34,527 bases of DNA from assembly GCA_030532425.1 (NCBI GenBank), contig JAUNLD010000002.1:1-34527 (forward strand), written 5' to 3'. The notes beneath the pieces were generated by a model. The model did not search any database. It was given only the letters and a program-made list of their open reading frames with translations, and was not told the DNA's origin. The stretch comes from Lautropia sp. GTDB taxonomy: Bacteria > Pseudomonadota > Gammaproteobacteria > Burkholderiales > Burkholderiaceae_E. Within the stretch, counting starts at the first letter, position 1; every line of letters begins with the position of its first letter. A program made the translations under genes and the position numbers. Below, one piece after another: positions 12,951 to 26,590 of this stretch.

Positions 12951-13136
12951 CGGGCCGTCCTGTCCGGGCGCGCCAGGGTGCGGGGCGGGCTGGCGTTTGG
13001 GCGCCGGGTGGCGCATCATCGCCGGCGGGCCCCGGCTGGCCGTCTGCCTGATGCGGCCGGGCGTGTTCCGCGAGGCGCCTGGCCCCGGGGCCGCCGTCCG
13101 GCCCGATCGCCCGCGCACGTCCAGGAGGACATCACC

Positions 13137-24381: not shown

Positions 24382-24891
24382 TCAGCGCTGGTGGGCAATG
24401 ATGCGCGCCTTGATGTCTTCGTAGACATGGGCGGGCACGATCTTGCGGCGTTTGAGATCATCCTTGCCGGTGTAGGGACGCCCCTTGATGATGGCCTTTG
24501 CCCGGGCGGCTCCGATGCCGGGCAGCGTGGCCAGCTCGGCTTCCGAGGCACTGTTGAGATCGAGCTTGGCGCCGCTGGGGGGCATGGCGGCCTTGCCGGT
24601 GCCTTTGTCCGGGGTGCTGCTGGTGGCAGCGCCCCTGGAAGGGGCTGCCCGGTCAGAGGCGCGGACTCTGGTGTCGGTGGCTTTCTGGCTGGCGCTGGCC
24701 TTCAGGCCGTCGGTGGAGGTGCCGGCCGCGGTCTTGGTGCTGGCGGCGGCCTTGTCCTGGGCTGCCGGGCGAAGCGCAGCCGCATCACCCTTGTCGGCAG
24801 CATGCAGCGGGGTGCTCAGCACAAGGGCCAGTGCGGTCAGCAGGCTAGGCAGCGGGGAACGGGAGGCAGGGGCAGAAAACGGGATCTTCAT
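24382..24891 (-). CDS. ComEA-like secreted helix-hairpin-helix DNA-binding protein
   Basis: Encodes 169 residues from ATG 24891, the Met that opens a signal peptide (cleavage after LSTPLHA, ~31); the frame continues upstream to 25287 through a polyproline shadow that I do not believe. Residues ~32-108 are an Ala/Thr/Lys/Ser-rich basic linker. The last 60 residues are a ComEA-type HhH domain: LDLNSASEAELATLPGIGAARAKAIIKGRPY then DDLKRRKIVPAHVYEDIKARI. ComEA proteins bind double-stranded DNA in the periplasm during transformation. Here pilS/pilR are encoded ~5 kb away, but no other competence gene is linked. rluF follows after ~60 bases on the same strand. A general HhH protein is the alternative. 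Confidence 0.88.
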   Translation of the reverse strand: MKIPFSAPASRSPLPSLLTALALVLSTPLHAADKGDAAALRPAAQDKAAASTKTAAGTSTDGLKASASQKATDTRVRASDRAAPSRGAATSSTPDKGTGKAAMPPSGAKLDLNSASEAELATLPGIGAARAKAIIKGRPYTGKDDLKRRKIVPAHVYEDIKARIIAHQR

Positions 24892-25402
24892 GGGCGGGAC
24901 GGGGTGAGGCAGATGAGGCGCGGGTGGGCGTGGCAGGAGGGCCGACGCCAGCAGCGGGACAGCATCTGTGCAGGAAGCAGCAAAGACTGTGGACAAGGTG
25001 CCGCGGGTGGCGACGGAGAACGCAGCATGCGCCAGTCGGCGGGTACGCACGTGCCGGGGACGCTGCATCAAGATTACCAAAAAGCGGGGGTGATCGCGCT
25101 GCTGGGGGGGCGCGGCGGGGGGGGGGGGGGGGGGCCCTGGGGCCCGGGGCCGCCGGCATTGGCGGCGGACAGCCGCGCGGGCGGTGGTGGGGGGAGGGGG
25201 CGGGAGCAGGGGGCTGTTGGCAAGAGGCCGCCCTGCATCTGGGGAGCGGGCCTGCGCCAGGTGGCTGCCGGCGGAGGGCGGGGCCACTTAGGGTTCATCC
25301 CTATGGCGTCTGAAGCCATTCAGTAGGAACATGATACCCATGTTGCAGACCTGATGAAGCTGCCTTGCTTTTGGGCTTGGCTGTCGATCAGGTCTCCAGA
25401 AA
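24892..25402. other. Gene-free, extremely G-rich region upstream of comEA-like gene
   Basis: About 510 bases between the comEA-like start and the small RNA terminator. Open frames on both strands here are Gly- or Pro-runs produced by base composition. On the minus strand TATCAT (25336-25331) with a weak TTCATC 16 bases upstream is a possible comEA promoter, which would give a ~430-base leader carrying the homopolymer as a C-run. No RNA family is recognised. Confidence 0.5.
25117..25134 (+). repeat. 18-G homopolymer
   Basis: An uninterrupted run of 18 G on the plus strand, flanked by GGGGGGG (25104-25110) and by GGGCCC-type sequence. Such runs slip during replication and can fold as G-quadruplex DNA. 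Its true length may vary between cells or be misread by sequencing. Confidence 0.9.
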
Positions 25403-25466
25403 GAAAAAAGCCCGCACGGATAAACGTGCGGGCTAATCCACCAAAGGAGGAGGTGGAGGAGACGGT
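25403..25466 (-). ncRNA. Candidate trans-acting small RNA with anti-Shine-Dalgarno loop
   Basis: A compact transcription unit read on the minus strand. A TATAAT -10 at 25476-25471 predicts a start near 25466. The ~64-nt RNA opens with a C/U-rich stretch (CCGUCUCCUCC), then a 6-bp stem UCCACC/GGUGGA (25457-25452 with 25442-25437) whose 9-base loop is UCCUCCUUU, exposing CCUCC, complementary to the AGGAGG ribosome site. It ends in a perfect 10-bp terminator hairpin with six U. The layout (anti-SD loop plus Rho-independent end) is that of Hfq-type or CcsR/alpha-r14-like CU-rich sRNAs in Alphaproteobacteria; homology is not claimed. A leader peptide reading (Ser-Ser-Thr-Ser-Ser) would need an ATG overlapping the -10, so I prefer RNA. 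Confidence 0.6.
25404..25434 (-). terminator. Rho-independent terminator of the candidate sRNA
   Basis: Perfect 10-bp stem AGCCCGCACG/CGTGCGGGCT with a six-base loop, followed on the minus strand by six T (25409-25404; the first T also pairs in the stem), then CTT. One of the strongest terminators in the window. Confidence 0.92.
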
Positions 25467-25470
25467 TCCC

Positions 25471-25498
25471 ATTATAGCCATCCTCCGGCGTGGTGCAA
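25471..25498 (-). promoter_or_regulatory. Sigma-70 promoter of the candidate sRNA
   Basis: Minus strand: TTGCAC (25498-25493), 16 bases, perfect TATAAT (25476-25471). The -35 is partial, the -10 is consensus. It is the only perfect TATAAT I noticed in this GC-rich window. Confidence 0.65.
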
Positions 25499-25541: not shown

Positions 25542-25592
25542 AAAAACGGCCAGAACGTTGTTTTCAGGCAACGTCATGGCCGTTTTTTTTTT
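25542..25592. terminator. Strong, probably bidirectional terminator
   Basis: Outer stem AAAAACGGCCA (25542-25552) with TGGCCGTTTTT (25577-25587), a 2x2 internal mismatch, inner stem ACGTTG/CAACGT (25555-25560, 25569-25574) and an 8-base loop. Ten T follow on the plus strand (25583-25592) and five T close the minus-strand side. On the minus strand it ends the glycosyltransferase transcript and insulates the sRNA promoter. No plus-strand gene that needs it was found. Confidence 0.88.
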
Positions 25593-25741: not shown

Positions 25742-26590
25742 TCAGCCCGATTTCAGCTGTTGCACCAGCTGGCGGACGATCTCGGCATCGACGCCGACAT
25801 CGAACTTGCGGGCAAAGAGCTTGTCCGACCGGGCAAGCCGCTCGCGGTCGGCCATCGTCAGCACGCGCGGATGCGAGGCGCCCTCGTCAAAGACCTCGTC
25901 GTGAAAGCTCTGCTGCCGCACCGAGTCGGCAAAGGGCGAGTTCATGATGAAACTCTGGATCATCACCTCGTCCGGCCGGTAGGTGCGTGCCATGGCCCGC
26001 CGCCAGGCGGGCAGCTGCGGCGATTCGATCATGTGCTGGCAGAAGGCCCGGTTGAGCACCAGATAGGGGCGGCTGCCCACGTAGCGGGCATCACCCAGCT
26101 CTTTGCGCCAGCGGTCGATACGCAGCCTGGGCAGGTTGATGCCCGTGCTGGAGAAGGGCGGCTCTATCCGGATGCGGTGGATGCGGGCGTAGGGATCGGC
26201 CCAGCGGCTGAGCGGATCGAAGTGGTCGATGAAATTGCAGTGCTCCTGGCCCCGGAAGGTGGCGATGATCTGCTCGATCGGGCGCAGCGGCAGATCCTGC
26301 CCGCTGAGGTTTATCAGCATCTTCCACGGCTCGGGCCGGGCCAGCAGCTGGGCCATGCCGTCCAGGCGGGCCTGCATCAGGCTCCACGAGGCCCAGCGCA
26401 TGTCGCGTGGCGGGGCGATGATGACGTTGGCGTGGCGTCGTGCCACGGCCTGCAGTGCAGGCGCGTCGCCGGACAGCGTCTTGCGGTCGGGCAGCACCAG
26501 ATAGAGGCAATCAGGGTGCTGGATGCAGTGGAGCAGCTGGGCCAGCTGCCCGGGCTGCTGGTGCGCGGTAATGAGGAAGGCCAGTGACAC
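25742..26590 (-). CDS. GT14-like (core-2/I-branching) beta-glycosyltransferase
   Basis: Encodes 282 residues from GTG 26590, preceded by GGTGAG at five bases. No signal peptide or membrane segment, so cytoplasmic. It opens MSLAFLITAHQQPGQLAQLLHCIQ, and contains APPRDMRWASWSLMQARLDGM and WKMLINLSGQDLPLRPIEQI, the hallmark blocks of the Core-2/I-branching family (PF02485), whose bacterial members add sugars to surface polysaccharides. Later blocks are YVGSRPYLVLNRAFCQHMIES and YRPDEVMIQSFIMNSPF with the acidic DE that likely includes the catalytic base. Length suits bacterial members. It is a single gene between ffh and a strong terminator, and acceptor and donor are unknown. Confidence 0.9.
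   Translation of the reverse strand: MSLAFLITAHQQPGQLAQLLHCIQHPDCLYLVLPDRKTLSGDAPALQAVARRHANVIIAPPRDMRWASWSLMQARLDGMAQLLARPEPWKMLINLSGQDLPLRPIEQIIATFRGQEHCNFIDHFDPLSRWADPYARIHRIRIEPPFSSTGINLPRLRIDRWRKELGDARYVGSRPYLVLNRAFCQHMIESPQLPAWRRAMARTYRPDEVMIQSFIMNSPFADSVRQQSFHDEVFDEGASHPRVLTMADRERLARSDKLFARKFDVGVDAEIVRQLVQQLKSG

Follow-up and report, generated by a model that had tools for sequence, protein, structure and literature searches.

A Lautropia member of the RF02278 small RNA family and the PhaR-type operator at the promoters of its Burkholderiales relatives

What is known about the RNAs closest to the one described here? The Rfam family RF02278 (Betaproteobacteria toxic sRNA) owes its name to toxicity to E. 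coli, growth inhibition by cloned members being cited to Kimelman 2012, and it includes published 'double-hairpin' RNAs such as NcS27. The four homologs reported in Burkholderia cenocepacia J2315 (ncS03, ncS05, NcS27 and ncS62) are short transcripts of 57-92 nt, with starts mapped by dRNA-seq and with predicted pairing to ribosome sites (PMC5688073). As measured by qPCR, ncS03, ncS05 and ncS27 are raised in biofilm, under starvation and in glucose medium, and two of the three in stationary phase as well; ncS62 is absent from that table (PMC5688073). Sass et al. (2017) described the regulator of sRNA accumulation in B. cenocepacia as yet unknown, and reported an upstream motif common to three of the four RNAs in their Fig. 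S3 (PMC5688073). Four RF02278 RNAs are also reported from Herbaspirillum seropedicae SmR1, a plant-associated laboratory strain whose PhaR represses phaP1 and phaP2. A further reported relative of RF02278 is S17S of Bordetella (PMC11722255). Outside the family, MmgR of Sinorhizobium is likewise a short CU-rich sRNA. Its promoter has a site for PhaR, the PHB-sensing repressor; the motif core of Sinorhizobium PhaR is YGCRNYGCR, and gel-shift assays show binding of the purified protein to the mmgR promoter (PMC12542648).

The locus studied here lies in a Lautropia sp. contig stretch of 34,527 nucleotides, the whole of which we refer to as the window. Judged by its sequence, the window sRNA is a genuine member of the known family RF02278: cmscan scores it at 59.5 bits (E 1.1e-9), the gathering score being 50, over the full length of the model (1-64 of 64). 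With the score above gathering, it does not constitute a separate family, as the original prediction had considered. The family architecture is present, with two hairpins, the second an intrinsic terminator, and a CU-rich 5' end and loop; sequence, hairpins, CU-rich parts and terminator are common to the window copy, the B. cenocepacia RNAs and Herbaspirillum Hsnc059, 063, 086 and 107. Hairpin 1 lacks 2 nt relative to the model, and the assembly of the window's genome contains a single copy above the cut-off, as opposed to the four reported for B. cenocepacia J2315. A second, sub-threshold copy in this genome (C115; L002 1501-1553; 32.8 bits) combines a short hairpin with a terminator but contains no anti-Shine-Dalgarno or CU-rich block, and we do not regard it as a working paralogue. 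NmsRb of Neisseria (RF02877) and anti-hemB (RF02837) resemble the window sRNA in their CU-rich two-hairpin look; it scores below the cut-offs of both (36.5 bits vs 52, and 26.9 bits vs 49.5), below that of the SorX family, and below the gathering score of suhB (RF00519), to which MmgR belongs (20.4 bits vs 41).

Table 1. Predicted features of the sRNA locus and its neighbors in the window
Feature	Position	Strand	Basis
sRNA, predicted transcript of ~64 nt	25403..25466	-	RF02278 match spans 25403-25464; fold z -6.7
5' CU-rich pairing block GUCUCCUCC, last bases shared with stem 1	25455..25463	-	sequence
Hairpin 1: 6-bp stem UCCACC/GGUGGA, loop UCCUCCUUU (25451-25443)	25437..25457	-	fold
Intrinsic terminator: 10-bp stem 25434-25409 and U-tract to 25403	25403..25434	-	fold, terminator search
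-10 element TATAAT	25471..25476	-	sequence
-35-like TTGCAC	25493..25498	-	sequence; 16-nt spacer to TATAAT
Upstream neighbor ORF	25742..26590	-	tblastn
Downstream neighbor ORF, N-terminus uncertain	24382..24900	-	tblastn

The elements named by the original prediction, a perfect TATAAT, a CU-rich 5' end, a 6-bp stem with its loop and a 10-bp terminator, are all found on the minus strand (Table 1). TATAAT occurs only once more in the window, likewise on the minus strand, while TTGCAC matches TTGACA at 3 of 6 positions by eye; the start at ~25466 is predicted from the TATAAT spacing. Folding of the 64 nt yields -29.5 kcal/mol, which none of 200 shuffles equalled. By eye, a further terminator-like hairpin (25547-25582), bidirectional and with A/T runs on both sides, is located between the glycosyltransferase-like ORF and the sRNA promoter.

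Conservation of the RNA extends well beyond the genus. RF02278 matches were obtained in all nine genus genomes searched, in 49 of 61 relatives (40 above the cut-off) and in 159 of 250 Burkholderiales genomes (100 above the cut-off), but in none of 14 control genomes. Across 28 relatives chosen for diversity, 96.7% of cells pair, with changes on both sides in three of the six pairs of stem 1 and in six of the seven counted pairs of stem 2, the terminator; none of five covariation measures was reached in 500 shuffles. The block GTCTCCTCC stands close to the start in 125 of 133 distinct relatives, and the 5' block of the window sRNA recurs in the Bordetella loci that the conserved pattern retrieved. 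The original prediction would have been refuted by relatives in which loop and terminator are not conserved together; as far as tested, the two are conserved together, although the loop varies, a CTCC, CCTC, CCTT or TCCT core being found in the predicted loop of 91 of the 133 distinct sequences. Among the matches listed, many copies occur in single genomes, nine in G043 and eight each in G088 and G184 (loci L043, L327 and L331), and neighboring pairs ~200-400 bases apart are seen in G043, G210 and G233. In part of the family, as at L004, L005 and L007, the -10 element is ~25-28 nt further upstream than in the window, and by eye the extra leader could fold into a hairpin of its own, e.g. GGTCGTCGACGACGACC in L005, which suggests the existence of long and short forms.

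The sRNA locus also holds its place within the genus, as judged by tblastn with the neighboring ORFs. The upstream neighbor, which we take to be a core-2/I-branching-type glycosyltransferase, matches upstream of the sRNA in eight of nine genus loci, and the downstream one, presumably a helix-hairpin-helix ComEA-like protein, in six of nine, the window's included in both cases; the misses do not equal absences, because the flanks are short. S17 of Bordetella likewise adjoins a gene called glycosyltransferase, a likeness in name. An 18-G run at 25117-25134, upstream of where the minus-strand comEA-like gene probably starts, is the sole homopolymer of at least 10 G or C in the window; it could represent either a slippery tract or an artefact of assembly.

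What is new here is a putative promoter link to PhaR among the relatives; the window locus itself is ordinary. Many Burkholderiales RF02278 copies carry TGC-RNY-GCA across the -35 box, the same motif that precedes phasin genes, and it fits the published PhaR operator. In 53 aligned sRNA loci (53 of the 87 matches listed), TGC-N3-GCA occurs within 120 nt upstream in 36, compared to a shuffle mean of 1.6, and in 29 of those 36 it starts exactly 22 nt before TANNNT, i.e. over the -35 box. A set of 80 loci from named organisms, taken from at least 120 pattern-found stretches, gives the same picture: TGC-N3-GCA lies within 120 nt in 54 (shuffle mean 1.9), with a -10 exactly 22 nt after it in 42 (shuffle mean 0.03), and is seen in 21 of 255 distant stretches of the same loci. 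Phasin genes have TGC-N3-GCA within 450 nt upstream in 20 of 23 loci, 19 with TGC-RNY-GCA, three weak rows of the phasin match list being left out. An operator matrix trained on 34 phasin sites, with a threshold score of 11, recovered 26 of another 29 phasin loci, which lie in other genomes and were not part of the training set; two of the three misses (L370 and L375) are contig-end loci whose start position was wrongly assumed. A fitting operator also precedes phaR in 6 of 30 phaR loci (L054, L060, L071, L073, L075 and L080), and in 0 of the 19 of the window's family.

Applied up to 250 nt upstream, the matrix reached threshold in 66 of the 80 named-organism loci. Among the 14 misses, counted irrespective of the presence of PhaR, are loci labelled Burkholderia (two of four) and Cupriavidus (two of three), the single Ralstonia locus and one whose flank is no longer than 23 nt; the Burkholderia-labelled L118 (9.1) and L137 (8.3), below threshold, each have a CGCGCTGCG palindrome at -21. 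Three loci labelled Bordetella (L135, L147 and L155) show an operator-like site 132-197 nt upstream. While S17S is reported to be processed from a ~190-nt precursor (PMC11722255), the window sRNA has its -10 directly at the start.

Does the operator follow the repressor? PhaR was scored by TIGR01848 in the 250 Burkholderiales genomes, for which a completeness of at least 95% was asked (that of the window's own genome is 88.8%), and sRNA sites were the 146 listed at 50 bits or more, in 100 genomes; the 20 genomes without PhaR comprise nine named without a match and eleven missing from the list of matches. Within 250 nt, a matrix score of 11 was reached at 92 of 120 sRNA sites and in 71 of 80 genomes with PhaR, as opposed to 1 of 26 sites and 1 of 20 genomes without it (Fisher 9e-13, uncorrected for kinship), and in 53 of 1060 random 250-nt stretches. 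As the genomes are related, raw p-values are inflated, and units of family by PhaR status, one tied family being counted as having the operator, provide only a rough correction: 18 of 19 such units with PhaR contain it, and none of nine without (p 1.4e-6). Raising the score to 13 retains 63 of 80 vs 0 of 20 genomes and 14 of 19 vs 0 of 9 units (p 6e-4). The published core YGCRNYGCR, searched within 150 nt, is present at 96 of 120 sites with PhaR, at 0 of 26 without, and in 166 of 800 random stretches. In the sole exception without PhaR, G078 (12.5), the RNY center is missing, while 28 of the 120 sites in genomes with PhaR fall below the operator threshold. Genomes devoid of PhaR have kept the sRNA, but not the palindrome.

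In the window copy, TGC-RNY-GCA is lacking from the promoter, which reads GTCTTGCACCACGCCGG and scores -6.5 at the -35 region, with 4.5 as the best value in 150 nt. Its TTGCAC is, from sequence comparison, apparently the retained half of a PhaR-type operator (TTGC-RNY-GCA in relatives). Within the genus, G004 (22.6) and G008 (20.9) score high, G005 (13.1) and G006 (13.9) have one core base altered each, and G000, the window's own genome, G001, G002, G003 and G007 score below 5; several members have thus kept the -35 half and lost the second. Decay following loss of PhaR was rejected for the window's genome, which has PhaR and a phasin with the operator; within the genus, such loss is compatible with G002 alone (99% complete) and perhaps with G003 (80%). 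With the operator degenerate, control by PhaR has probably been lost or become weak in the window copy, and it fails to explain this copy, as the operator is poor even though PhaR and an operator-bearing phasin are present. The window copy is probably constitutive or otherwise controlled.

Phasin genes may be connected to the family in another way. Weak RF02278 matches (29-33 bits) directly follow phasin genes in G011, G026 and G057; in G055, which has a 30-bit match after the phasin gene, the CU-rich double hairpin is plain in the sequence. The CU-rich arrangement after the phasin is the same in G014 and looser in G039 and G111, and G019 has a weak match ~450 bases past the phasin domain. Of 23 phasin loci, six have CTCCTCC within ~200 nt after the stop; three of these carry two blocks, and in L092 it lies outside such a hairpin. 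Among 29 further loci, YCTCCTC follows the stop within 177 nt in five, of which two have it late and lack the layout by eye; both are raw counts. CTCCTCC is absent within ~200 nt after the stop of the phasin in the window's genome. At L109, L110, L084, L088 and L355, a CU-rich double hairpin with terminator, like RF02278 below the cut-off, was observed 3' of phasin genes; the double hairpin of the phasin 3'UTR is possibly a phasin-derived sRNA.

In our preferred reading, which we hold with considerable confidence, the window encodes a stand-alone trans-acting RF02278 sRNA that blocks ribosome sites, and a PhaR-type operator, present in most PhaR-containing Burkholderiales tested, has decayed at this copy. 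Transcription would start at the sRNA's own promoter, predicted to be of sigma-70 type, and end at its own terminator. The CU-rich segments, the 5' GUCUCCUCC and the loop UCCUCCUUU, would then pair with purine-rich ribosome-binding sites on many mRNAs and so reduce the translation of these, with the probable participation of Hfq, as we infer from Bordetella S17. In most PhaR-containing Burkholderiales tested, the promoter carries the PhaR-type operator, often over the -35 box, such that the sRNA should stay silent until PHB begins to form, pulls PhaR off the DNA and lets the sRNA rise, a prediction from comparison. In the lineage of the window, with the operator decayed, the copy would probably be expressed constitutively or be under other control.

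Could the locus instead be a stray terminator hairpin next to a fortuitous CU-rich stretch, with no RNA gene at all? Terminator-like sites are indeed common here, the terminator by itself being within chance (two sites in 2 kb against a shuffle mean of 1.3), and a simple sigma-70 promoter scan of the sRNA region returned no promoter. Yet the full-length Rfam match, the matches in every genus genome searched and the covariation place the sRNA beyond chance, and with compensatory changes in both stems and a 5' block so widely kept, we regard this explanation as highly improbable. A less remote, though still unlikely, explanation is that the upstream TGC-N3-GCA of the relatives serves a different regulator as its operator, or is just a preferred form of the -35 box, with PhaR uninvolved. 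It draws on the frequent overlap of the motif with the -35 box, on the retention of TTGCA where the second half is lost, as in the window and several genus members, and on the literature searched, which yielded no PhaR-binding evidence for betaproteobacterial sRNA promoters. Such an explanation is difficult to reconcile, however, with the full palindrome tracking the phaR gene and being given up in PhaR-free genomes that retain the sRNA; the palindrome moreover equals the phasin-promoter motif, recurs before some phaR genes, and fits the PhaR core gel-shift-tested in Sinorhizobium, mmgR included (PMC12542648).

The mode of action allows for a third explanation, by which the RNA is mainly a decoy mimicking the anti-Shine-Dalgarno tail of the 16S rRNA, or a growth toxin, and not a regulator of defined mRNAs. 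The family name, the CCUCC-type loop and the slower growth upon overexpression of NcS27 (PMC5688073) speak for it. S17S, however, left exponential growth of E. coli BL21 unimpaired and caused no more than a modest slowing as the cells entered stationary phase, yet it does repress a lacZ translational reporter of BP2158; of the genes that respond to S17, 70 (77%) match S17 single-stranded regions (PMC11722255); we therefore give this explanation little credence, less than the involvement of another regulator. For the window sRNA, blocking of ribosome sites is inferred by analogy to such relatives. The AGGAGG at 13123, put forward by the original prediction as a possible target, does precede a GTG start, but its pairing is a generic Shine-Dalgarno match, with a duplex of -16.2 kcal/mol the weakest of four pattern-found AGGAGG-plus-start sites in the window. 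Phasin starts, 28 of 29 of which were scored, gave a mean z of -1.8 against mononucleotide shuffles, a value that any Shine-Dalgarno site may give, and the phasin start of the window's own genome -19.4 kcal/mol (z -4.0); phasin ribosome sites did not clearly stand out as targets. The underlying idea of a terminator-ended, CU-rich sRNA with anti-Shine-Dalgarno blocks agrees well with published relatives, which are expressed and for which action at ribosome sites is predicted and, in one case, shown (PMC5688073, PMC11722255).

How does the preferred reading, with its PhaR-type operator, relate to the alphaproteobacterial system? The parallel with alphaproteobacterial CU-rich sRNAs, already drawn by the original prediction, is apt because the betaproteobacterial relatives and mmgR have a PhaR-type operator in common; as PhaR binds the alphaproteobacterial mmgR promoter (PMC12542648), the link between RF02278 and PhaR looks like a parallel circuit. 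In publications on the RNA family, on mmgR, or on PhaR with sRNAs or phasins, covered mostly by titles and openings, no such link was found, and the main texts of PMC5688073, PMC10987360 and PMC11722255 do not mention PhaR, although the operator motif may have been drawn already in Fig. S3 of Sass et al. (2017). The comparative evidence that PhaR would control much of the RF02278 family, the window copy excluded, is strong.

More broadly, we think it likely, if with less assurance than for the locus itself, that RF02278 represents the RNA arm of PHB-sensing PhaR across Burkholderiales, parallel to alphaproteobacterial mmgR, by which the onset of carbon storage would raise an anti-Shine-Dalgarno RNA and so reduce uptake and catabolism. 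The RNA would originate either from a PhaR-operated promoter of its own or, in certain lineages, from the 3'UTR of the phasin mRNA, itself PhaR-operated, and the wiring would be in the course of being lost in the window's genus, where some members have a perfect operator and others, including the window, only the -35 half. Biofilm, starvation, glucose medium and stationary phase are conditions expected to favor carbon storage, and a PhaR-type operator could explain the rise of ncS03, ncS05 and ncS27 in biofilm, starvation and glucose medium. If true, a broad ribosome-site-blocking RNA would be tied to carbon storage, and the window's genus would exemplify the loss of a regulatory link inside a single genus.
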